Positions 24,239 through 35,110 of a stretch of DNA of 64,000 nt are shown piece after piece; the stretch's first letter is position 1, and each line of letters starts with the position of its first letter. The position numbers and the translations under genes were made by a program. The stretch comes from Pseudomonas mendocina (lineage in GTDB: Bacteria > Pseudomonadota > Gammaproteobacteria > Pseudomonadales > Pseudomonadaceae): NCBI RefSeq assembly GCF_003008615.1, contig NZ_CP027657.1:2418001-2482000 (forward strand). The letters run 5' to 3'. The notes beneath the pieces were generated by a model. That model searched no databases and was not told the DNA's origin. It saw only the letters and a list, made by a program, of their open reading frames with translations.

Positions 24239-24270
24239 GGCGGGCTCAGGAGCGAAGCGAACAGCCCGCC
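24239..24270. repeat. REP-like hairpin at the edge of CRISPR array 1
   Basis: GGCGGGCT (24239-24246) and AGCCCGCC (24263-24270) form an 8-bp inverted repeat around GGAGCGAAGCGAA. It directly abuts the degenerate, leader-distal CRISPR repeat and may end transcription of the GNAT operon and of the array. Confidence 0.5.
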
Positions 24271-24475
24271 AATTGCTGCCTACACGGCAGTGAAGGACAT
24301 GACTGTGCTCACTCCCGGTAATGGGGATTTCTGAGCTGCCTACACGGCAGTGAAGGCGGCGAACAAGAAAACCCAGGCGGCGATGAATTTCTGAGCTGCC
24401 TACACGGCAGTGAAGGCCTCCTCCAGCGTCTGCCGCGCCTCACGCAATTTCTGAGCTGCCTACACGGCAGTGAAG
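24268..24475 (-). CRISPR. CRISPR array 1, subtype I-F (4 repeats, 3 spacers)
   Basis: Repeats of 28 bp at 24328-24355, 24388-24415 and 24448-24475 are identical. A fourth, at 24268-24295, is degenerate in its leader-distal 7 bases. Spacers are all 32 bp (24296-24327, 24356-24387, 24416-24447). On the minus strand the repeat reads CTTCACTGCC then GTGTAGGCAG then CTCAGAAA; CTGCC-GTGTA-GGCAG is the I-F hairpin and CTCAGAAA the 8-nt crRNA 5' handle. The degenerate repeat is at the low-coordinate end, so the leader is at 24476 onward and the newest spacer is 24416-24447. Confidence 0.97.
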
Positions 24476-24605
24476 TAGCGCTAAAAGTCGCTAACACATT
24501 GATTATTAAAGAACCTCCTCTGCGTTGCCCGGCTTACCCCTTTTTTCGGAGCCGCTTGCAAGTGCTTGATTTTGCAAGGGCTCCGGTTGTGGTCAGAAAA
24601 GAGGG
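24476..24605 (-). promoter_or_regulatory. CRISPR array 1 leader with two IHF sites
   Basis: AT-rich region between the array and cas6f. Two perfect matches to the IHF consensus (WATCAA-N4-TTR) lie on the minus strand: AATCAATGTGTTA at 24492-24504 and AATCAAGCACTTG at 24559-24571. IHF bends the leader during spacer acquisition in type I systems. The distal site begins 84 nt from the first repeat, exactly as in array 2. Confidence 0.75.
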
Positions 24606-25175
24606 TCAGAACCAGGGGATGCTGGCCTGTGGGCTCAGGCCATAGGCGCCGAAGGTGCCTGCGGTTGGTGTGTCGAGCAGCGGGCCGTGGCGAATAAACA
24701 GGCGGAAGCTGTGGCCGCTACCGTTGCTGCGCAAGGTGGCGTAGGGCAGGTCGCAACGTTTGCCGGCGCTGTCGGGGATGCGCTGGCGCGCTTCCTCCTC
24801 GCTGATACCGTGGCGCTTGATCAGGCGGCGGCGGGCGCGCTCCGGGTTGCTGTCCACCTGTACGCGGCTGACGCAACGCCAGCGCACTTGCGCGGGGATC
24901 GGCGCCAGCTCGCCCAGGTGCAGGTGGTCACGCATGCCGGTGAGCCAGTTCAGCGCCAGTAGCCTGTCCAGGGCCTCGGCACTGCCATGTAGGCGCAGGC
25001 GAGTGCCGAGGCCGTGGCTGGCGCTTTCCACATCCGGGAAGCTGATGCCCACATCGCTACGGCGCAGGTCATGCAGGCCCCGGTGCAGTTTGGCCAGCAG
25101 GGCGCTCATCAACTGCGTGGCCGGGAATTCCGGATCGGGTAGCAGTTTGAGGTCGAGGTAGTGATCCACGGTCAT
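24606..25175 (-). CDS. cas6f: Cas6f (Csy4) crRNA endoribonuclease
   Basis: Cuts pre-crRNA at the base of the repeat hairpin and stays bound to the crRNA 3' end. The 189 residues follow P. aeruginosa Csy4 closely with a shift of two: H31 corresponds to catalytic H29 and S150 to S148; the arginine-rich helix [13 protein letters not shown] binds the stem; the C-terminus ends PWF. It overlaps cas7f by 4 bp. Being intact, it should also cut the repeat-like hairpins of the element at 28664-28745, whose stems are conserved by compensatory changes. Confidence 0.95.
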
Positions 25176-26200
25176 TTCTCCTCGGCGGCCCCGAATACGC
25201 CGCCACGGATCAGGTTGGCGATCACGTAGTGCTGCTGCTCGGCACTCGGCACGGTGTCGTTGAGCACCCAGGCATCGAACAGGCTGTAGAAGTCGGCTTT
25301 GTCCTTGGGCTGGCGGTAGGCCTTGCCCTGGGAGGTGACGGAGCCGTAGGGCTCGACGGCGATGGGCCCGCGTTCGCCAGCCTCCGGGTACCAGGTGTCG
25401 ATGGTGCGCAGGGCGTTGCCGATCTTCTGCGAGTGGATGGCGGCCACATCGCCGACCTTATAGAGCGTCTTGCTCTTGCCGCCTTTGCTGTCGCCCCGAT
25501 CGAGGATCAGCTCCTGCGAGGGGAAGATTTCCTGGCCGTCGCCGATACGCACGAAGGCCACCACCTCCAGCAGCAGATGGCCCTTGCCGGCCAAGCCGTC
25601 GGCGATCACCTGGCCCAGGCTGTCGACCTCGGCGTGGGCGGCAAAGGCGCGCAGCGGCAGCGCCAGGCCATCGAACGTCCAGCGCTGCACCGCTTCGCCG
25701 TTCTGCAGGCGGGCGATGCGCACTTCAACGGCTTCGGCGCCGATGCGGTTGCGCCAGAGGAAGCGGCCGTTGGCCAGGTTGGCGGCGTAGCGCCGGCCCA
25801 GTTCGGCGAAGCCTTGTTCGGCTACATAGCCCTGCACGGTGGCCAGCAGCTTGGCCTGGTAGTCGGCATCGTTACAGGCCGAGGGAGTACCGGCGCCGCC
25901 CAGCACACGCAAGGTGAAGCGCACCTTGAGGGTGTCGGCATCGGCGGGCAGGGCGGCGACATCAACGGTTTGCAGGTTGGGTGCCTGGATCGAGGCGTCC
26001 AGCTTGGCCGGGTCGCGATCCTTGGTTTTCAGGCGGTTGGAGATGGTACCGCGCACGGATTTCTCGCGGATATGCACAGGCTGCCAGATGCCGGCGTCGC
26101 GTTGACTCCAGCGTCCTGCATAAAGCAGTGCGTCGGAGGGGTCGAGCTTGCGCTCGAAGGCGAGTACGGAGGCGGTGGTCAGCGTGGTGGTCTTGGCCAT
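25172..26200 (-). CDS. cas7f: Cas7f (Csy3) backbone subunit
   Basis: Forms the six-copy backbone of the Csy complex, each copy covering 6 nt of spacer. The 342-residue length is right for the family, with typical stretches [36 protein letters not shown] and [19 protein letters not shown]. The ATG at 26200 has AAGGA upstream. It sits 12 bp after cas5f and overlaps cas6f (ATGA). Confidence 0.95.
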
Positions 26201-26212
26201 GGTCGGATGTCC

Positions 26213-27187
26213 TTATGCGTGGGCTTCGAGATCGAGAAAGGGCGTGTTGCAACGGAACAGGCCGACATCTGGCTCGGCCTGGTGATACCAGAGCAGTTCG
26301 CGGATATCGCCGAAACGCAGCGGGCTGCGCCATTCGCCGAGTCCGTAGAGGCTTTCGACGAAGTGAAACGGCACCTCGCGGTCGCGGGCATTGCGCACGC
26401 TGCCAGGGACATGCTCCGACAGCGAGCGATAACCCAGCGGAATCGGCACCAGCCAGCCGGCGCGTTGGCGTATTTGCCAGGCCTCGCGCGGCGCGCCGTT
26501 TTCGTCGGTGGAGCCAGGCGGGTCGACGTTCAGGCGGGTGAGGTCGAGCAGGGCGTCGAGGCTGGTCAGGCTGGTGTCCTGCTCCCGCAGGGCGGCGGTG
26601 TGTCGTGTCAGCAGGTCATTGCGCGGTATCAGGGCGAAGCCCGGCAGCAGACGGCGCGCCAGTTTGCGGCTGAGGCGGGAAGCTTCCTCGGCATTGCCGG
26701 GCCAGATTTCAAGCGAAGCTTGGCTGCGATCGCCGAGTACCCAGGTCGGCGGCAGCAGGCTGCCACCGGCCAGGCGCATGCCGAGGGCGGTGTCCCAGGC
26801 GCGTTGGGCGATTGTCTTTTCATCCTGCATGCCGTCGTAGAGGGCCATGCCGGAGACACCGATCAGCAGGCTGACCTCCAGGTGCATGCGGCCTTCTTCG
26901 ACGATGGCGGACGTCGAGCCGTCCTTGCCTACCGGGTTGCGCGTCAGGTGGAACACCTGAGTGCGCTTGCCGGCTGGTTGTGAGGTTTGCGTTTGATGCC
27001 GGTGGCAGATGATGGCCACACCATCGAGGGCGATGTCCATGTCCTGGCTGAGCTTGCGCTGCAGGGCATGGACGAAGCCGGTGAAGGCAGTGACGGCGGG
27101 GAAGCCCCAGGTCAGTGGGCCGGAAATGGCATTGGCGTTCTGCACGCGCAGGCGCGGCAGCAGGAGCAGGGCTTCAGGCGCGTCCAT
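26213..27187 (-). CDS. cas5f: Cas5f (Csy2) subunit
   Basis: Caps the crRNA 5' handle together with Cas8f. The 324-residue protein starts MDAPEALLLLPRLRVQNANA and shows the I-F signature GPLTWGFPAVTAFTGFVHAL. The ATG at 27187 overlaps the end of cas8f by 14 bp and follows AAGGAG. The frame is open upstream through cas8f to 28390, but that extension is a frame shadow of cas8f. Confidence 0.94.
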   Translation of the reverse strand: MDAPEALLLLPRLRVQNANAISGPLTWGFPAVTAFTGFVHALQRKLSQDMDIALDGVAIICHRHQTQTSQPAGKRTQVFHLTRNPVGKDGSTSAIVEEGRMHLEVSLLIGVSGMALYDGMQDEKTIAQRAWDTALGMRLAGGSLLPPTWVLGDRSQASLEIWPGNAEEASRLSRKLARRLLPGFALIPRNDLLTRHTAALREQDTSLTSLDALLDLTRLNVDPPGSTDENGAPREAWQIRQRAGWLVPIPLGYRSLSEHVPGSVRNARDREVPFHFVESLYGLGEWRSPLRFGDIRELLWYHQAEPDVGLFRCNTPFLDLEAHA

Positions 27188-28490
27188 CGTCGAGCATCTC
27201 CTTGAACAGTGTGAGTTCGTCGTGCAGCACGCCCCGCCAGTGATTGGCTTCGTCTTCGCCGAGGCGCAGGGCGTCGTGGTCGAGCTTGGCGTTGAGCCAG
27301 TTGCCGAAGCGCTTGCTGGCCTGCTCCGGCCAGTCGCGCCACAGGTGGGTGCTTTTGAACGCTTCATCATCCTGAGCGCGCAGCGGGTCGAGCCAATGCC
27401 GTTCGCTGTCGTCCAGGCGGCAGTCGGCGTGCGCACTCCAGCCGGCGGCCAGCTCGCCGTTGCGGTTGGCTTCGAGCAGAGCGGCGGCGTACTGGTGGCA
27501 GGCATCGCTGATTTCGCCGAGCAGGCGCGCGCGTTTGCGACGAATCTGCCAATTGTTGTGGCTGGTATCGCGCAAGAAGTGCTGCAACTCGGCCACGCGT
27601 GCGCGCAGGGCTTTGTCGTTGCGGTAGATAAACTCGAACGCCGAGTCGCGGCGTAGGGGCGGGCGCAGGTCGAGGGTGCGCCATTGCGGCGGCAGCGAGG
27701 CGAGCAGCCAGTTTTCGCCGTAGCGCTCGCTGTTGAGTTGGCTGATGTTCTGCGGTTTTGTGCCGCCGAACTTCTGGATCGCCAGGTCGAGGTATTCGCA
27801 GTATCCATGCGGGTGCGGCTGTTTTGCTTTGCGTGCATCGCGCGCCGCCTTGGCGGCTTCGCCGAAGCGATCCTCGCGCATGCGCTGTTGCACGCGGTGC
27901 ACCAGGCTGGTGGGAAACAGCGGCGCCAGCAGGTGGTAGCTGCCATCCGGCAAGGGGAAGTAGACCTGTTTGGCCAGCGTATGGGAGGCCGGCGTGCCAC
28001 GGCTTTCGGTGATGGCGGCAAAGCTGGCGCGCCAGGTTTCGGCCTGCTCGGCGTCGTCACTGAGAGCGGCAAGCAGGTCGGCATCGTGCTCCAGCATGCG
28101 TTGCAGCAAAGTCCGGCCTGCGTGTTCCAGCTTGAGGAGCTTGAACACGTCCAGCGCTGCTGCGTTGCCCACCACGTCATCGTCCCACTGCCCTGCCAGG
28201 CAATGGCTGGACACCAGCCCCGGCAGATCGAGCGCGGGCGGCGGGGCATGCAGGTTGCTGCCACGGGCGTCGGGGTGGATGGGCTTGAGGGTGTGAGTGG
28301 CGAGCTGGATCTGCGCCACGCGCCGTGCGGCATCGGCGAGCCAGGCGTCTGGCTGGTGGGCTTCGAGCAGTGGCTGGCGCTTGGGATCATCGTCGGCCAG
28401 CTTGTCGAGCTTGGCCTGTAGGCGGGTGTGGATGAAGGTGTGGATCAGATCGCGCAGGGCGGCTGATTCGGCTGTGCTCTTCGTCGCCAT
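27174..28490 (-). CDS. cas8f: Cas8f (Csy1) large subunit
   Basis: PAM-recognising large subunit of the Csy complex (I-F PAM: CC on the protospacer strand). The 438 residues include AARRVAQIQLATHTLKPIHP, AKQVYFPLPDGSYHLLAPLF and the conserved YCEYLDLAIQKFGGTKPQNI, typical of Csy1. Translation signals are strong (AGGAGG 6 nt before ATG). It is separated from hipA by an unusual 326-bp gap. Its own promoter seems to be there, next to a site matched by a crRNA-like element. Confidence 0.95.
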   Translation of the reverse strand: MATKSTAESAALRDLIHTFIHTRLQAKLDKLADDDPKRQPLLEAHQPDAWLADAARRVAQIQLATHTLKPIHPDARGSNLHAPPPALDLPGLVSSHCLAGQWDDDVVGNAAALDVFKLLKLEHAGRTLLQRMLEHDADLLAALSDDAEQAETWRASFAAITESRGTPASHTLAKQVYFPLPDGSYHLLAPLFPTSLVHRVQQRMREDRFGEAAKAARDARKAKQPHPHGYCEYLDLAIQKFGGTKPQNISQLNSERYGENWLLASLPPQWRTLDLRPPLRRDSAFEFIYRNDKALRARVAELQHFLRDTSHNNWQIRRKRARLLGEISDACHQYAAALLEANRNGELAAGWSAHADCRLDDSERHWLDPLRAQDDEAFKSTHLWRDWPEQASKRFGNWLNAKLDHDALRLGEDEANHWRGVLHDELTLFKEMLDDGRA

Positions 28491-28581
28491 GGAACCTCCT
28501 GTTTAGGCGAAAGCATGCGAGTCTCGGAGGGACTGCCTGTCCTCGGAGTGGCTGTGCCATCATCTTGATGGCTGCCTGGAT

Positions 28582-28609
28582 AGGCTAGTGCAGATTGAAC
28601 AGCGTGCAA
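28582..28609 (-). promoter_or_regulatory. candidate promoter of the csy operon
   Basis: On the minus strand, TTGCAC (28609-28604), 16 bp spacing and TAGCCT (28587-28582) make a plausible sigma70 promoter. Transcription would start near 28575, leaving an 85-nt leader before csy1. An A/T-rich tract directly upstream (28617-28640) could act as an UP element; it is part of the site matched by the crRNA-like element. Prediction by eye only. Confidence 0.4.
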
Positions 28610-28622
28610 GTTCTGTCTTTTT

Positions 28623-28650
28623 CAAAAACAAAAAGGTGCAAATCAATAGG
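28623..28650 (-). promoter_or_regulatory. PAM-flanked target of the crRNA-like element upstream of csy1
   Basis: The minus strand reads CC (28650-28649), then TATTGATTTGCACC. The pseudo-spacer at 28692 reads TATTGCTTTGCGCC. Over 22 positions, 18 match; mismatches are at 6, 12, 16 and 18, and positions 6, 12 and 18 are those not paired in Csy/Cascade R-loops. Pairing stops at position 23, which should allow binding but not Cas2-3 cleavage. The site lies between the candidate csy promoter and the element itself, so a bound complex could repress either or both. Confidence 0.75.
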
Positions 28651-28663
28651 TGAACTATTCTGA

Positions 28664-28745
28664 GCAAACTACCGTTCAGGTAGCTCAGAAATATTGCTTT
28701 GCGCCTATATGTTCCGTTTTGACTGCTGAGTAAGCAGCCTCATGT
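28664..28745 (+). ncRNA. crRNA-like regulatory RNA (degenerate repeat-spacer-repeat, CreR/CreA-type)
   Basis: Lies opposite in strand to all cas genes, between hipA and csy1. Pseudo-repeat 1 (28664-28691) matches the array repeat at 20 of 28 bases; stem CTACC-GTTCA-GGTAG has the G-C pair replaced by A-T on both sides, and the last 10 bases, including the 8-nt handle CTCAGAAA, are exact. Pseudo-repeat 2 (28718-28745) has stem CTGCT-GAGTA-AGCAG, again with a compensated pair, and is conserved only up to the Cas6f cleavage point. The pseudo-spacer (28692-28717) is 26 nt, exactly one 6-nt Cas7f segment shorter than normal 32. A weak -10 (TATTCT, 28656-28661) could start the RNA at pseudo-repeat 1. 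Small RNAs of this design (CreA, CreR) are known to guide Cascade to repress toxin or cas promoters in other subtypes. Confidence 0.8.
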
Positions 28746-28813
28746 AAAGAAATCGCCGTTTTCTTTATGCGTCGGGCATTACGTGTAAAGAAAACGGCGT
28801 TTCTTTTACACGT
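28745..28813. repeat. Two related palindromes between hipA and the crRNA-like element
   Basis: Palindrome 1: TAAAGAAA (28745-28752), 7-nt loop, TTTCTTTA (28760-28767). Palindrome 2: ACGTGTAAA (28781-28789), 15-nt centre, TTTACACGT (28805-28813). They share the block GTAAAGAAA with a CGCCG/CGGCG centre, and the centres are 41 bp apart. They may be paired operators of an unknown regulator or transcript 3' ends (hipA on minus, the small RNA on plus). Neither has a clear T tract. Confidence 0.55.
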
Positions 28814-28816
28814 TGT

Positions 28817-30103
28817 CTATTGCAGCCGAGCGGCCTGCTCCGCCACCAGCGCCCGAATCGCCCGCAGGCAACGCATCTCGCCGGCAAAGGTGGCGCGCAG
28901 CTCCGGGCGTTCGGCTGCCAGTTCGGCATTTTCCCGCTCTGTTTGTGCCAGCAATTCATCGGCGTGCGCGGCGATGCGCTCCTGCATGCGCTGCAACTGC
29001 GCATTGGCCGGGGAGCGTTTCAGGCCCAACGCTTCAGCGGCGTCGAGCAGGTGCTGGCGGTCGATATGTGCGAGGCGCGACTCGCCAAGGATCGGCCAGG
29101 CCAGGGTGGTCGCTTGCGGCCAGCGATCCTGATCGAAGGCGCGGGTTTCGTAGACGGCGGTACTCAACAGGTCATAGAACGGCGACAACTGCTGACCGCG
29201 TGAGCCGACCAGAAAGCTGATGTTCTTCAGGTGAGCGTCGGTATTGCCGATCAGCACGTTGAACAGCAGCCAGTTGAACAGGCGAGTACGGGTGACTGCC
29301 GGGGCAATGGTCAGCCCCAGTAGCTGAACCAGGCGTTCGATACTGCCGGCCTGGTACTTGAAATGACGATCCAGGCCGAGCATCTGGCAGGCGTCGATGC
29401 TGTGCAGGCGTTGCCAGGTTTCGCCCTGTGCCTGGCGGTCGAAGCGTTCGATCAGGTAGACCGGCTGGGGCACGTAATGACGGCTGACACCGGGCACGGC
29501 AAGGCCGACGCGGGCGGCCAGGCGCATGCAGAACCATTCGTTGACCACCGAGTGGGCGAAGGCTGGCTCGGGGTGATCCGGTTTGAGGATATGCGTCGAG
29601 GGGGCCGCGCCGACCGGTTCGTACAACTGGCCGGCCTTGAGCACCACGGCCAGCTTGTGTTGGGCGCCGGCCAGGGACATGCGCTTGTGAGCTTCGTGGG
29701 TCAGCGGCAGGCGCGGCATGGCTGCGATGCGTCTGGCCAGTGCTTCGTCCGTCAGGACGCGCAGCTCGCCTTTCGGCAGCGCTTCGCCCGGCGGCAGCAG
29801 GGTCAGTGAGCCGGCCGATTCGGCGCCGTAGTACGCCAGCAGAGCGAAGGCGTCGCTGGCTTCCAGACGAGCATCGGCAGCCAGCAACTGGCGCTGGCCT
29901 TCCTCGGGCAACAGGTTGTCGAAGTACCACTGCACCGGACGCTGGCTGCTGTTGTCGAGGATGGTGCCCTGTGCCCGTGGCAGGTTCGGGCACAGGTCGA
30001 AAGCGCCCCAGTCGTCCGCATAGCGGAAGCTCCATACGCCATTGTCGTCGTAGAGATGCCCCACCAGGCGATCACCGATCCAGGCCAGCAGCTCGCGCTT
30101 CAT
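28817..30103 (-). CDS. hipA: HipA-family serine/threonine kinase toxin
   Basis: HipA toxins phosphorylate aminoacyl-tRNA synthetases (GltX in E. coli) and stop growth. The 428 residues have all kinase landmarks: S143 in MSLAGAQHK (equivalent of the autophosphorylated S150), K174 in HILKP, catalytic D289 in IGNTDAHLKN, metal-binding D311 in PFYDLLS. So the toxin looks active. Its start overlaps the hipB stop by 4 bp (ATGA), the normal antitoxin-toxin order. It sits between cas2-3 and cas8f on the same strand, which is not the usual I-F layout. Confidence 0.93.
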   Translation of the reverse strand: MKRELLAWIGDRLVGHLYDDNGVWSFRYADDWGAFDLCPNLPRAQGTILDNSSQRPVQWYFDNLLPEEGQRQLLAADARLEASDAFALLAYYGAESAGSLTLLPPGEALPKGELRVLTDEALARRIAAMPRLPLTHEAHKRMSLAGAQHKLAVVLKAGQLYEPVGAAPSTHILKPDHPEPAFAHSVVNEWFCMRLAARVGLAVPGVSRHYVPQPVYLIERFDRQAQGETWQRLHSIDACQMLGLDRHFKYQAGSIERLVQLLGLTIAPAVTRTRLFNWLLFNVLIGNTDAHLKNISFLVGSRGQQLSPFYDLLSTAVYETRAFDQDRWPQATTLAWPILGESRLAHIDRQHLLDAAEALGLKRSPANAQLQRMQERIAAHADELLAQTERENAELAAERPELRATFAGEMRCLRAIRALVAEQAARLQ

Positions 30104-30351
30104 GCTTCAGGTTCACCGGGCAGTTTTTCCACTTCATCCGGCAGATCGACGATCAACCTCAGTCCGAGGCCATCGAGCACCTGGAACAGTTTGCCCCACT
30201 GCACGCTCTCGCTACCGCGCTCGACCTTGCCAAGGAAGTTTTCGCTGACGCCAATGCTGCCGGCGGCGTCATCCTGGCGGATGTTCTGTGCCTTGCGTGC
30301 CCGGCGTATCAACTCGCCCAGTTCGGCCGCGCTCTTGAGTGTGGTTTGCAT
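30100..30351 (-). CDS. hipB: HipB-family antitoxin, XRE-type repressor
   Basis: An 83-residue Cro/XRE helix-turn-helix protein (LGELIRRARKAQNIRQDDAA, GVSENFLGKVERGSES), followed by a short hydrophobic segment (LFQVLDGLGLRLIVDLP) and an acidic tail. It should neutralise HipA and repress its own promoter by binding the three palindromes between 30359 and 30475. One of these lies 7 bp upstream of its start codon. Confidence 0.9.
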   Translation of the reverse strand: MQTTLKSAAELGELIRRARKAQNIRQDDAAGSIGVSENFLGKVERGSESVQWGKLFQVLDGLGLRLIVDLPDEVEKLPGEPEA

Positions 30352-30358
30352 ATTAAAT

Positions 30359-30374
30359 CCTCATGATCGTGAGG
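30359..30374. promoter_or_regulatory. HipB operator 1
   Basis: CCTCATGATCGTGAGG, a near-perfect 16-bp palindrome, 7 bp upstream of the hipB ATG. It would overlap the transcript start or ribosome-binding region. Confidence 0.75.
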
Positions 30375-30409
30375 AATTTGTCACGTAATACAGCGTGGAT
30401 CAAGTGAAT

Positions 30410-30425
30410 CCTCACGATTGTGAGG
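30410..30425. promoter_or_regulatory. HipB operator 2
   Basis: CCTCACGATTGTGAGG, embedded in the larger palindrome GAATCC...GGATTC (30406-30429). It is 51 bp from operator 1, about five helical turns, so dimers on both could meet on one DNA face. Confidence 0.75.
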
Positions 30426-30459
30426 ATTCTTGGGTTCTTCGCTCTGCCGCCAGTCATAT

Positions 30460-30475
30460 CCTTATGATCGTGAGG
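30460..30475. promoter_or_regulatory. HipB operator 3, abutting the cas2-3 stop codon
   Basis: CCTTATGATCGTGAGG, 50 bp from operator 2; its extended arm (ATCC...GGAT) reaches the cas2-3 stop (30477-30479). A repressor bound here could also hinder read-through from cas1-cas2-3 into hipBA and the csy genes. Confidence 0.7.
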
Positions 30476-30476
30476 A

Positions 30477-33400
30477 TTATCGACCACGCGTGAAACCCAG
30501 GGTCTCATGCCAGCGCCAGGTTTGGTCGGTCAAGGTGCCGCTGTCATTGCGCTGGCAGTCGAGGCTGATCTGCCCATAACGCATGGCGCAGGCGCGCAGA
30601 TTCAGGCCCTTGCGTTCGGCCAGAGTGGCCAGCTCCACTTCATAGCCGGCGTGCCCCCAGCGCTGAATACGTGGGCCGTATTGCAAGGGCAGGTCGCTCA
30701 GCAGGTTGTTCAATGGGCGCCAGGTGCCGTCCTCTTCGTCACGGTGGAAGGTGCAGGGTAGCTCGTCGTCACTGTCGGGCAGCAGGGCGTAATCGAGTTG
30801 CGGGCGGCCCTTGCGGAAGGGCTGCGCATGTTGCATCACGCCGCTCAAAGGCGCTGGCGTCTGCCACCAGAATGCTGCGGTCAGATCGACGTTGCTGGCG
30901 CCCATGCCGAGCAATTCGGCACGTAGGCGCGCATGTTCCAGATCCACCAGGCGGCTTTTCGGTTGCAGGGGACTGGCCTCGACGATGCGTGGCGCGGCGT
31001 CGATGGTGAGCATCTCGGCCGGTAGCAGTTCGCGCAGGTCATGGCTGGCCAGGCGCATGCTATCGCTCTCGAAACCGGGGCGGATGAACGCCTCTTTGCT
31101 GCCCTGCAAGGCCTTGAGGTTATGCGACAGCAGGTAAAGATTGTCGCCCTCGCAGGCGCCTGGGCGATGGCGACGGATGCGCCCGGCCAACTGGATGATC
31201 GAGCGCATGGATGAAGGCTCGACGATGGCCCAGTCGTAATCGTGGTCGCGGCCCACCTCGGCCACCGGCGAGGCGAGCACGACGAACAAGTGATCGGTCT
31301 CAGGGTAGCGAGCCAGGGCGTCGCGCACCGTGGGTTGGTCGAACACGGCCTGTGGCTCATGGCGGCGCAGCAGGCTGTCCAGTTGGCGCTCGATGGCCGA
31401 GCGCAGTAGCAGCGGGAAGCGCGAGTGGTAAACGCATAGATGCAGGCGCATGCCCTCGGGCGCGCCCTGGGCGTACAGCGCCTGGGCCAATTCGATCAGC
31501 GGGTCGACATTGGCCAGACGCAGCAGGCCGAAGCTGACGCGCCGACCATCACTGGCCGTGCTGTGATGGTGTTGATGCAGTTCGTTCATCCAGCCCGGTA
31601 GTTGCTGCGCCAGCTCGGCGCAGATGGCCGGGCGTTCCTTGCTGCTGGCGCTGACTGGAACGATACGGGCGCGGCGGCGCACCGGTTGTTTACTCAGAGG
31701 GGTCAGGCGCTTGTCGATGAAAGCGCTGTGTTGCGCCGCGAAGCCGTCGCCATCGACCTGTAGCGAGGCGCTGCAGGCGAATTCGTCGAACCAGGCGCAG
31801 CAGATGTCTGCCGAGGTACCGGGTTCGCCACGATGTCGGCGATAGGCGGTGCGCCCGGCACTGTAAGCCTCGAACAAGGCACGCACCAGTGCCGGTGGCA
31901 GGGTGGCCGATGACACCAGTACGCGGCTGCCGAGCAACCCGGCCCAGTGCACCAGGCGGGTGAGGGCAGGTAGGTCGGCCAGGTCGAAGTCGTCTGGTTC
32001 GTCCAGGATCAGGTCGGAGGTGAGCAGACGTAGCATCGGTGCGATCTGCCGACCGCCCCGAGTGCTTTCGCAGGCTGGGATCAGGTGATCGACAGTACAG
32101 GCCAGGACGGGTGCGCTGACCAGCTTGTGCACCAGCGGATCGTGCTGCAGCCAGTCCTTGAGCGGGCCGTCTTCCAGGTTGGCTTCGTAGTGCACATGGC
32201 CATTGTCCAGTAGGTTCGCCAGCGACTCGCTACCCTGCGCTGCAGCCTGTCGCGCCCTGGCGCTCAGCTCGAACAGCTCGCGTACCGCCGTGCCGCCGAC
32301 GCGGATGGCCAGGTCGTCTTCGTCCAGGCCGAGCTTTTCCCGGTAAGCCTCACCGGTCTGCAAGGTGAGGGTGCGCAGGCCGAGGGCGATGGAGAAGCGT
32401 GCACCGCGCTCCGGGTCGGCCAGGGCATAGAGAATTCGACCATTGGCCAGGGTCTTGCCGCAGCCGGTGGAGGCCAGGTTGATGCCGAAGAAGCCCTGCC
32501 GCCTGGCGGCGTCTCGCAGACCACAGGCCAGGTCGAAGGCTCTGTCCTGCCAGCGGAAGCGCTCGTCCGTGACGCGGCGTTTGAAACCCTTGTGCCGGGC
32601 GATGCGTGGCAGGCTGCGTTCCAGGCGTGGCAACAGGCCGACGATGCGCCGGGCGCCTTGAGCGACGCCGAGCAGGTGTTCATCGAGGCGTTGTTTCAAC
32701 GCACCGCTCTTGTCCGTGTTGGCATGGGCGGGGAAGTTGGGATCGCCGAGGCGGGCATCGCTTGGCAGGCTGGAGTAGTGGTGGTCGGCGAGCATCAGCA
32801 CCAGACGCGACAGGTGCATGGCGTAAGGATCGACCAGCCACTGCGGCGCGTTTTGCAGCAGCCCGGGGCGCTCCAGCATGGTCTGGGCACAGGCCGCGAC
32901 ACGTTTGCTCCAGGTGGCGCTGGAAAATGGCAGATGACCGGATGGGAACTGCCAGCAGGCGGCCTTTTCCGCCGCACTGGAGTCCGGGCGTGCACCGCAC
33001 CAGTCGGGCTTTATCGGCGCTGGCAGCAGTTTCAGCCCTGCTGCCGGGAGTTTGCCGCTGGGCAGGCGGTGATGACTGACGATCAACCAACCGATCACCT
33101 GGGCCAGGGGTGGCAGATGCCGTTGCATGAAGGGGCTGGGCTGAGTTTGTTCATGATCGGCGCGCAGGCGGGCGAACCAATCGGCATCGCCCTCGACCAG
33201 TCGTTGCAGCCAGTCCGCATCGTTGGCGCCGCTGCCGACGAAGGCCTCGAACAGGCGCAGCGATACCCATTCGTGGCGGTAGGCATCGGCCAGCGGCCCC
33301 TTGCCGCGCAGCTTGGCCTGGAAGGCGGTGTTGGCCTTGCCGATGTCGTGGAACAACGCCGCCATCTGTGCCAGCAGTTTGATGTCTTCGGCGCTGTGCC

Positions 33401-33716
33401 AGTCGTTCTCGTCATCCTTGCGCAGCACGTCGCGGCGGGTGGTGTTGGTCGGCACCGCGCCCTGGGTGTTGAAGCGGCTGGCGTCGCCGACGATCCACAA
33501 CAGTTCGCTGTGATCCTTGCCGCGTATCCAGTGGCAGGCCACGGCGGTGTTGCGTCGGGCAGTCTTCTTCAAAAGCTTGCGCAAGGTATCCAGCCCCGCC
33601 TGGGTGATCGGTGTCTGCCAGGTGCGTTCGCCCCGGCGTTCGGCGAACTGATCGAGGAGGCGCCGGCTTTCCACCAGTGCGCGTTTGTCGCACTGGCTGA
33701 TCAGCAATACGTTCAT
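30477..33716 (-). CDS. cas3f: Cas2-Cas3 fusion (subtype I-F helicase-nuclease)
   Basis: The I-F hallmark fusion, 1079 residues. Residues 1-95 form the Cas2 domain (MNVLLISQCDKRALVESRR). The HD nuclease follows (ALFHDIGKANTAFQAKL, H123/D124). The SF2 helicase has Walker A STGCGKTLANGRILYAL near residue 415, the DEAD-like LILDEPDDFDL near 573, SSATLP and motif VI GRIRRHRPG. It acts both in target degradation and, with Cas1, in spacer acquisition. Its start overlaps the cas1 stop (ATGA). Its stop is followed directly by the HipB operator region rather than by cas8f. Confidence 0.96.
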   Translation of the reverse strand: MNVLLISQCDKRALVESRRLLDQFAERRGERTWQTPITQAGLDTLRKLLKKTARRNTAVACHWIRGKDHSELLWIVGDASRFNTQGAVPTNTTRRDVLRKDDENDWHSAEDIKLLAQMAALFHDIGKANTAFQAKLRGKGPLADAYRHEWVSLRLFEAFVGSGANDADWLQRLVEGDADWFARLRADHEQTQPSPFMQRHLPPLAQVIGWLIVSHHRLPSGKLPAAGLKLLPAPIKPDWCGARPDSSAAEKAACWQFPSGHLPFSSATWSKRVAACAQTMLERPGLLQNAPQWLVDPYAMHLSRLVLMLADHHYSSLPSDARLGDPNFPAHANTDKSGALKQRLDEHLLGVAQGARRIVGLLPRLERSLPRIARHKGFKRRVTDERFRWQDRAFDLACGLRDAARRQGFFGINLASTGCGKTLANGRILYALADPERGARFSIALGLRTLTLQTGEAYREKLGLDEDDLAIRVGGTAVRELFELSARARQAAAQGSESLANLLDNGHVHYEANLEDGPLKDWLQHDPLVHKLVSAPVLACTVDHLIPACESTRGGRQIAPMLRLLTSDLILDEPDDFDLADLPALTRLVHWAGLLGSRVLVSSATLPPALVRALFEAYSAGRTAYRRHRGEPGTSADICCAWFDEFACSASLQVDGDGFAAQHSAFIDKRLTPLSKQPVRRRARIVPVSASSKERPAICAELAQQLPGWMNELHQHHHSTASDGRRVSFGLLRLANVDPLIELAQALYAQGAPEGMRLHLCVYHSRFPLLLRSAIERQLDSLLRRHEPQAVFDQPTVRDALARYPETDHLFVVLASPVAEVGRDHDYDWAIVEPSSMRSIIQLAGRIRRHRPGACEGDNLYLLSHNLKALQGSKEAFIRPGFESDSMRLASHDLRELLPAEMLTIDAAPRIVEASPLQPKSRLVDLEHARLRAELLGMGASNVDLTAAFWWQTPAPLSGVMQHAQPFRKGRPQLDYALLPDSDDELPCTFHRDEEDGTWRPLNNLLSDLPLQYGPRIQRWGHAGYEVELATLAERKGLNLRACAMRYGQISLDCQRNDSGTLTDQTWRWHETLGFTRGR

Positions 33717-34681
33717 GCGCCAACCTGCTCGGCCACGGCCTTGAGGGTGTCGATCATGAGGTCCAGTGATTCGCCGCGGGTGAGGTTCTCGATACAGGCC
33801 TGGCGAAATTCCTGCTCCTCATCGCCACGCACGGCGCTGACGAAGGCTTGCGGCAGGATGGTGGCGTCCTTGACCAGATCGGCCACGTCGAACACCAGGC
33901 CACCGCGCCGCGTCTTGCCGTGCAGCACGGCCAGGCCGTGAGGGATGCCCAGCACCCAGGTGGCGCTGGCGGCCAGGCCGTAGGCCAGGTAGTTGCCGTG
34001 GTCGAGGAAGCGGTTGGCCGGATCGCTACCGCTGCCTTTCTTGGCGCGAGTGAAATCGCCATAGCTGACGGCACGCGCGGCGAGGGCGAACAGTTGCTTG
34101 CTCAGGCGGGCTTCTTCGGTAAGCAGGAAGGTGTTGTCCGGTGCCGCCACGATGGCGCGCTGCGAAGTTTCGAGGGCGTTCTCCAGGGCGGCGGCATCGA
34201 TCTGGAAACCGGCATCCTTCAGTGGCCGGCTGTTCAGCCAGCCCTGACGGATACGTTGCAACCGTGCCAGTTGAAAGGCCTTGGCCGCCTCCAGGCGCTG
34301 GTCATCGTCGAACCAGAATTTCACCCACTTCTGCAGATATTCCGTCGGGCGATATTCGCTTTGCGGCGTGAACCAGGCCACCTCCACATCCATCTCGTTG
34401 GCCGAGAACAGTGGTGTGCCGCCCCCGCCGCAGAAACCTACCAGCACGCCGGCCTTGGCCAGCTCACGCATCGCCGCCTGGGTGATCGAAGTGCCGGTAC
34501 CGAGCAGGATGGTGGTGGTGTTGGCGATGGGGATATTCCAGTACAGCGATTGCTTGCCTGCATCGGTGACGTACTCCACCCGCCCACCGTTGACCAGCAC
34601 CCGGCAGTGCTGCAGGTAGTAGAGATTGGCGCGCTTGGAGTGGAGGATGGTCTTGAGGTCGGAGGGGCTGATGTCGTCCAT
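33713..34681 (-). CDS. cas1: Cas1 integrase (subtype I-F)
   Basis: Integrates new spacers with the Cas2 domain of Cas2-3 and IHF. At 322 residues from the ATG at 34681 (MDDISPSDLKT, GGGAG upstream), the numbering equals P. aeruginosa Cas1: E190 (LLTEEARLSK), H254 (AVLHGKTRRG), D265 and D268 (LVFDVADLVKD). All catalytic residues are intact, so adaptation should work. An in-frame ATG at 34699 is less likely. Array 2 lies directly upstream and is read in the same direction. Confidence 0.96.
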   Translation of the reverse strand: MDDISPSDLKTILHSKRANLYYLQHCRVLVNGGRVEYVTDAGKQSLYWNIPIANTTTILLGTGTSITQAAMRELAKAGVLVGFCGGGGTPLFSANEMDVEVAWFTPQSEYRPTEYLQKWVKFWFDDDQRLEAAKAFQLARLQRIRQGWLNSRPLKDAGFQIDAAALENALETSQRAIVAAPDNTFLLTEEARLSKQLFALAARAVSYGDFTRAKKGSGSDPANRFLDHGNYLAYGLAASATWVLGIPHGLAVLHGKTRRGGLVFDVADLVKDATILPQAFVSAVRGDEEQEFRQACIENLTRGESLDLMIDTLKAVAEQVGA

Positions 34682-34735
34682 GAAGGGCTCCCAGGGCAAT
34701 GCTGGCAGTTAAGCCCTTTTGATCCGAGGTGCCAA

Positions 34736-35003
34736 GTGCGGAGCTGCCTGCACGGCAGTGAAGGCGGTGCTGCTGTCTGCCGTCAGGGTGACCGTTTTCT
34801 GAGCTGCCTGCACGGCAGTGAAGACGACCTTCGCGATCCCGCGATCATCGTAGAATTTCTGAGCTGCCTGCACGGCAGTGAAGGGCGGCCGGCGAAATGG
34901 ATCGCGAGGGCGGCTTTTCTGAGCTGCCTGCACGGCAGTGAAGCTCGAACTCGTCCAGCTCGTCGCAGTTCACATTTTCTGAGCTGCCTGCACGGCAGTG
35001 AAG
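34736..35003 (-). CRISPR. CRISPR array 2, subtype I-F (5 repeats, 4 spacers)
   Basis: Repeats of 28 bp at 34796-34823, 34856-34883, 34916-34943 and 34976-35003 are identical; the one at 34736-34763 is degenerate in its last five bases and marks the leader-distal end. Spacers are 32 bp (34764-34795, 34824-34855, 34884-34915, 34944-34975). All repeats differ from array 1 at one loop position (GTGCA in place of GTGTA). The leader is at 35004 onward, so the newest spacer is 34944-34975. Transcription runs toward cas1. Confidence 0.97.
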
Positions 35004-35110
35004 TAGAGACGATAGCGCCCAAGTTGCTGTTTCTCAACGCTGGAGCCCCTTTTCTGGCGGTTTGACCCTTTTTTCAGGGCTATCTCCAACTCTTTGATTT
35101 TTAAAGAGAC
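35004..35110 (-). promoter_or_regulatory. CRISPR array 2 leader with IHF site
   Basis: AATCAAAGAGTTG (minus strand, 35099-35087) is a perfect IHF consensus, starting 84 nt from the first repeat as in array 1. At the position of the array 1 proximal site (35020-35032) only a degenerate match is present. AT-rich with runs such as AAAAAAGGG shared with leader 1. The remaining 150 bp up to 35260 show no gene. Confidence 0.72.

Follow-up and report, generated by a model that had tools for sequence, protein, structure and literature searches.

A crRNA-like mini-CRISPR upstream of csy1 in Pseudomonas mendocina and its probable CreR-like role in a type I-F locus

Described relatives of the element

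The closest described system is the type I-F CreTA module of Acinetobacter. According to the available passages of that study, Csy represses creT under the guidance of CreA, which comes from the cas3-csy1 gap; creT is an RNA toxin with a 33-bp mini-ORF, a strong Shine-Dalgarno sequence, and a start codon lying in a hairpin (PMC10097628). The same passages report three I-F CreTA modules plus 19 more found via relatives of cas3 and csy1, and they describe an approximately 7-fold repression of transcription by CreA with a 20-nt guide, which requires Csy and not Cas1 or Cas3. Like these modules (WCHA45, LoGeW2-3, and ANC3789), the P. mendocina element has two diverged repeats, lies in the cas3-csy1 gap divergently from csy1, and combines a short guide with a CC PAM, mismatches near positions 6 and 18, and a target between element and csy1. 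It agrees with type I-F CreTA in carrying a creA-type mini-CRISPR with a CC-PAM target in that gap. Set against what those passages describe, it differs in having a 26-nt guide rather than the 20 nt of WCHA45, a target on the csy1-sense strand, hipBA within the gap, and no creT mini-ORF with a Shine-Dalgarno sequence downstream of the target.

A second group comprises the CreR RNAs, which regulate cas genes. In the portions available, one source places them in types I-B, I-E, and V-A (PMC13131331), another in type I in general and V-A (PMC12737573), and a third mentions them without subtypes (PMC12948488). The CreR RNAs of types I-B, I-E, and V-A resemble the present case in being crRNA-like products of a mini-CRISPR with limited complementarity upstream of their own effector genes; cas repression was tested for them, whereas it is predicted here. 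A further kin, CrePA, likewise uses the CRISPR effector as a repressor through a crRNA-like RNA, but as outlined in the available part of PMC12737573, it needs a protein toxin gene at its target, and none stands between target and csy1 in the locus studied here.

A guide slot in front of csy1 is already known in type I-F as CreTA, and control of csy1-4 would be a different output for it. Regulation of cas genes in type I-F did not appear in the available passages of two earlier CreTA papers (PMC8501985, PMC9458426). A literature search likewise returned no type I-F CreR, although most subscription papers lay outside it and an earlier description is possible.

A degenerate repeat-spacer-repeat beside csy1

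The stretch that we analyzed, here called the window, comprises 64,000 nucleotides of P. mendocina contig NZ_CP027657.1. Its cas locus reads, on the minus strand, cas1, cas3, a hipB-like ORF, hipA, and csy1-csy2-csy3-csy4, with a type I-F array at either end. Cas1f occupies 33713-34699 and cas3f 30477-33716; csy1 (Cas8f; TIGR02564), the first gene of the csy operon, occupies 27174-28490 and is followed by csy2 (26213-27187), csy3 (25172-26200), and csy4/cas6f (24606-25175). Both arrays, also on the minus strand, are short: the one adjoining csy4 has four repeat copies (24265-24478) and the one adjoining cas1 has five (34733-35006). A single loop base distinguishes them, the repeat being CTTCACTGCCGTG[TC]AGGCAGCTCAGAAA in minus-strand reading, and the handle is degenerate in the outermost copies (24265 and 34733). 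Copies are spaced 60 nt apart, so array spacers are 32 nt long.

Between cas3 and csy1, hipA and the hipB-like ORF (28817-30351) form a hipBA-type pair, upstream of which repeated TCCTCA..TGAGGA palindromes (about 30355-30480) resemble HipB operators. A hipA-like gene likewise precedes csy1 in PDM16 (L019), and Vitreoscilla plasmid pVF1 carries VapC and XRE genes in its cas3-csy1 gap; toxin-antitoxin genes may tend to settle at this site.

The element itself lies in the hipA-csy1 gap on the plus strand (28664-28745), divergent from csy1. Its upstream repeat, R1 (28664-28691), folds as CTACC-GTTCA-GGTAG and contains the 8-nt handle CTCAGAAA (28684-28691), which the window's arrays share exactly; a 26-nt pseudo-spacer (28692-28717) separates it from the downstream repeat, R2 (28718-28745), with the hairpin CTGCT-GAGTA-AGCAG. 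The first-pass annotation had described exactly this arrangement, including the compensated stems CTACC/GGTAG and CTGCT/AGCAG, and the sequence bears it out. With an ordinary type I-F array, the element shares the repeat hairpin, the handle, the CC PAM, and the strand logic. It differs from one in having two diverged repeats and a single 26-nt spacer imperfectly matched to its own chromosome, where an array has several near-identical repeats and 32-nt spacers. In keeping hairpin and handle on degenerate repeats that lie apart from the arrays, this crRNA-like element agrees with CreR. The Rfam family CRISPR-DR4 matches R1 at 28668-28691 on the plus strand below its gathering score (20 versus 35 bits, E 0.12).

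Processing is predicted to yield a mature crRNA-like RNA of 54 nt (28684-28737, plus strand), made of the 8-nt handle, the 26-nt guide, and 20 nt of the 3' hairpin, which corrects an earlier expectation of about 60 nt. This prediction follows the Csy4 cleavage of Acinetobacter I-F CreA as given in the available passages of PMC10097628. Just 5' of R1, TTCTGAGC (28658-28665) can base-pair with the handle, and it does so in the fold predicted for a longer transcript, where it sequesters the R1 handle and lengthens the R1 hairpin; in that model, sequestration might slow Csy4 processing. Beyond the element, a terminator-like hairpin (28754-28809, plus strand; stem 28754-28799) ends in a T-rich tail; the terminator scan found one such structure against 0.5 expected in shuffles, and the palindrome may serve hipA as well. 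More generally, the stretch from element to hipA (28743-28813) contains two related imperfect palindromes (TGTAAAGAAA..TTTCTTTA), one of which scores as a plus-strand terminator. A stretch related to these palindromes, together with the hipA end, recurs in one other genome (G113), about 6.4 kb from its csy1.

The pseudo-spacer matches 18 of 22 positions of a minus-strand site at 28627-28648 (read from 28648 to 28627), adjoined by a CC PAM at 28649-28650, with mismatches at positions 6, 12, 16, and 18. The site lies 137-158 bp upstream of csy1, leaving a gap of 138 nt. The match, its mismatches, and the PAM had likewise been proposed beforehand and were reproduced here. Over the whole window and both strands, the runner-up site reaches 15/22, and other CC-PAM sites reach 14 at most. 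When the pseudo-spacer was letter-shuffled and compared with the CC sites of the intergenic region, none of 20,000 shuffles attained 18/22, and one attained 17. Partial complementarity with a PAM upstream of the element's own cas effector genes is another feature that it shares with CreR. We rejected hipBA as a repressed toxin, as no window site apart from 28627-28648 exceeds 15/22.

Survey of csy1-upstream regions

Relatives of csy1 were collected by searches at four taxonomic levels with overlapping genome sets (genus, 398 genomes; class, 369; order, 390; family, 398), and further loci came from genome contigs, 20 additional places, and 6 of 17 plasmid records. The scan covered 125 regions, or 120 distinct ones after removal of the duplicates L025, L035, L067, L092, and L118, the last being represented by L070. 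Loci left out of the scan were L003 (same genome as L019), L017 (a weak match), L018 (an additional copy from a single genome), L024 (lacking upstream DNA), and L133-L135 (fragments), along with some weak matches from the genome searches. Elements were detected by a strict, target-blind rule (a 5-bp stem, a 4-5-nt loop, a handle with at most one mismatch, and a second repeat-like hairpin) and by a looser rule that allowed two handle mismatches. Target match, PAM, and mismatch positions had no part in detection. The rule itself demands five stem pairs, and stem conservation would therefore be circular and was not used as evidence.

The strict rule found an element in 35 of the 120 regions, the window included (35 elements). 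All except those of L082 and L090 (33/35, the window among them) have a CC-adjacent match of at least 14/20 in their own region. Under the looser rule, 34 of 47 elements, again including that of the window, have their own CC-PAM target; the 13 failures include L112. As a cross-locus control, the spacers of the 47 elements were compared with all other regions, and 43 of 5,593 pairs reached 14. When best matches of at least 14 were taken blind to the PAM, CC preceded 34 of 35. A normal I-F array was present within the examined stretch in each of the 28 genomes checked from the 34 target-bearing loci, and the third handle base agreed between element and array in 18/28. LoGeW2-3, one of the Acinetobacter modules, was recovered by the survey as L113. 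Thus, at the level of sequence, the element, its exact host handle, its PAM, and its 18/22 match are established, and so is the recurrence of this design at 33 further type I-F loci. A near-miss element in L083 also has a target in its own region (16/22).

In the R-loops of type I effectors, bases flip out of the duplex at every sixth position. Among the 34 target-bearing elements, mismatches are absent from positions 1-5 and abundant at position 6 (24/34), position 12 (24/34), and position 18 (24/31), while the neighboring positions 7, 11, 13, 17, and 19 have 1, 3, 0, 2, and 9, respectively. With one near-identical spacer dropped, positions 6, 12, and 18 hold 69 of the 101 mismatches in the first 18 positions (p ~1e-30), a pattern that, given this flipping, is best explained by selection for pairing inside the Csy complex. 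Pseudo-spacer lengths in the 34 elements also suggest a 6-nt rhythm (Rayleigh p ~8e-6), which is suggestive only, since periods 5 and 7 also give p values of ~0.005-0.006. The proposal that the window encodes a Cas6f-type guide suited to Csy binding near csy1 is strongly supported by the 33/35 loci and by this concentration of mismatches. Chance resemblance, for which we found nothing in favor, is extremely improbable, given the shuffling result and the p value of the survey pattern.

Except for one near-identical pair, the spacers share at most 10 of their first 15 bases pairwise. That unrelated spacers nonetheless match their own targets indicates that guide and target have changed together repeatedly. 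Independent drift of seed and target in homologous loci, which the first-pass annotation had named as the outcome that would count against it, is the opposite of this pattern.

The nearest relatives give a mixed picture. In L118/L070, with a Csy1 85% identical to that of the window, there is a separate, unrelated element with its target 54 nt from csy1; it has two handle mismatches (and so is found by the looser rule only), a 13-nt spacer, and mismatches at positions 6 and 12, and it shares with the window's spacer 5 of the first 15 bases. By the detection rule, three other relatives with Csy1 84-86% identical (L002, L003/L019, and L117) have no element, and alignment of the window's gap with those of L002 and L019 revealed no common element. 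A DNA search of the intergenic region across 194 relatives matched solely its own genome and, for the hipA-end part, G113; the viral contigs searched contained no csy1 relatives. The three element-less relatives, the divergence of both repeats, and the sequestrable handle of R1 would fit a decayed CreTA or CreR remnant without present function, or a decoy repeat akin to RNA anti-CRISPRs. We nevertheless hold this to be quite improbable: stems, handle, PAM, and seed have all been preserved, with mismatches at 6, 12, 16, and 18. Moreover, RNA anti-CRISPRs are described, in the available part of PMC10651486, as solitary repeats in viral genomes, whereas the window has a pair of repeats around a matched spacer, and these lie within a cas locus.

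What the guide may control

We propose, at a probability of roughly 0.6 judged from sequence features, that the mini-CRISPR yields a guide that brings Csy to the upstream site and represses csy1-4 without cutting it, as a CreR-like brake. The element would be transcribed and processed by Cas6f to the 54-nt RNA, which would load into the Csy complex. The complex would then bind the 28627-28648 site without cleavage, as suggested by the loss of PAM-distal pairing and by the ability of the sibling I-F CreA to work without Cas3. Repression of csy1-4 would follow and would ease whenever free Csy complex is depleted by array crRNAs or by anti-CRISPR proteins. The choice of csy1-4 as the output is drawn from the window's 138-nt gap, which has no mini-ORF, and from L118/L070, in which csy1 stands so near the target. 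Several points count against it: no promoter scores above chance, the conserved csy1 leader lies downstream of the target, the three relatives at 84-86% identity are element-less, and the one I-F module tested at this position acts on a toxin rather than on cas genes. The first-pass annotation had likewise proposed Csy autoregulation; its guide and PAM-flanked site stand, while its csy1-4 output is still one that we infer, and it had overlooked the I-F CreTA at the same cas3-csy1 position, as described in the available passages of PMC10097628.

If the proposal is true, the I-F Csy complex, a main target of phage anti-CRISPR proteins, would control its own supply via a built-in guide, and strains of this kind would make more Csy when Csy is inhibited.

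We regard as unlikely the alternative that the element belongs to a type I-F CreTA as its creA part. Its guide would then repress a toxic RNA between target and csy1, in a form missed by our signature, and the cell would depend on a working Csy. Position and divergent orientation are those of the tested Acinetobacter CreTA (available passages of PMC10097628), and a 7-bp hairpin, GCCATCA/TGATGGC (28556-28572), with an ATG lies past the window's target. A creT-like signature is also present between target and csy1 in 14 of the 34 loci, including L005 of the same genus, compared with 0 of 34 reverse-complement controls and 5 of 86 element-less loci. In the window's own 138-nt gap, however, the search for this signature (a Shine-Dalgarno sequence plus a start-codon hairpin) found nothing, and the sole GGAGG is that of csy1. 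We considered a creT remnant there and rejected it: the stretch resembling L005 has no Shine-Dalgarno sequence and extends into the leader common to L117. Nor does the gap contain an ORF of at least 30 amino acids with a Shine-Dalgarno sequence, which sets the window apart from CrePA. As in CreR, no toxin gene is tied to the target, and hipBA lies beyond the element with its own upstream region.

Other loci show several arrangements. By script, csy1 starts at most 75 nt from the target in L026, L055, L060, L066, L070, and L093, and by eye also in L091 (where the script found no start) and L100 (where it misplaced the start), an arrangement that leaves little room for a toxin gene and counts in favor of the csy1-4 reading. 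The script assigned a small protein ORF between target and csy1 to L063 and L081, and it placed twelve of the 34 loci, including the window, L091, and L100, in no category. The comparison suggests one guide slot with several outputs and a route that may lead from addiction module to regulator or back. We give about even odds to a broader idea, in which type I-F has a single interchangeable control slot before csy1, wired by lineage to a toxic RNA, a small protein, or csy1-4, with guide lengths changing in steps of about 6 nt (one Csy3 unit) and mismatches falling on flipped bases. The window and its L118-type relatives would be the autoregulating CreR form, csy1 having replaced the toxin. The PAM and the 6-nt mismatch rhythm together provide a sequence test that finds such guides without a target known beforehand.

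A creT-like signature also precedes csy1 without a strict mini-CRISPR in L010, L012, L052, L083, and L097. Small protein-coding ORFs or long target-csy1 gaps are seen in L063, L065, L081, L082, L086, and L050; L081 and L082 have a 67-amino-acid ORF in common, and the L082 spacer has lost its match to its own region.

Where Csy would sit relative to the csy1 promoter bears on a further alternative. The last ~60 bp before csy1, a leader containing the Shine-Dalgarno sequence AGGAGG (28491-28555, minus strand), are conserved between the window and the element-less L117 and lie downstream of the target. With a GC content of about 0.39-0.48 over 28560-28839, against at least 0.6 in the flanking genes, the block that holds target and element is AT-rich; its composition and the conserved leader suggest that the module came to lie ahead of a csy1 leader older than itself. 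That leader may hold csy1's own promoter, and because it is downstream of the target, a bound Csy may not cover that promoter. A search of the window for sigma-70-like promoters of csy1 or of the element found none above chance (p 0.85; best score 5.1 versus a shuffled median of 7.3).

These observations leave some room, in our judgment an improbable case, for a real guide that acts elsewhere, either as a roadblock to transcription arriving from hipBA/cas3 or by silencing the promoter of the element itself, while a csy1 promoter would hardly be affected directly. The target precedes the conserved leader and stands over 100 bp from the csy1 start, the promoter prediction beside it is empty, and on the element's own strand it is also upstream of the element. 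Yet a terminator-like palindrome already stands between hipA and csy1. In addition, among the 28 loci whose target is on the element's strand, 13 show TTGA within 12 nt past the target, on the csy1 side, compared with 6% of windows in the background, as expected if a -35 box typically adjoins the target. The L117 leader also contains an inverted repeat, AGGACAGGTTGTCCT, degenerate in the window at 28491-28555, which is possibly an operator.
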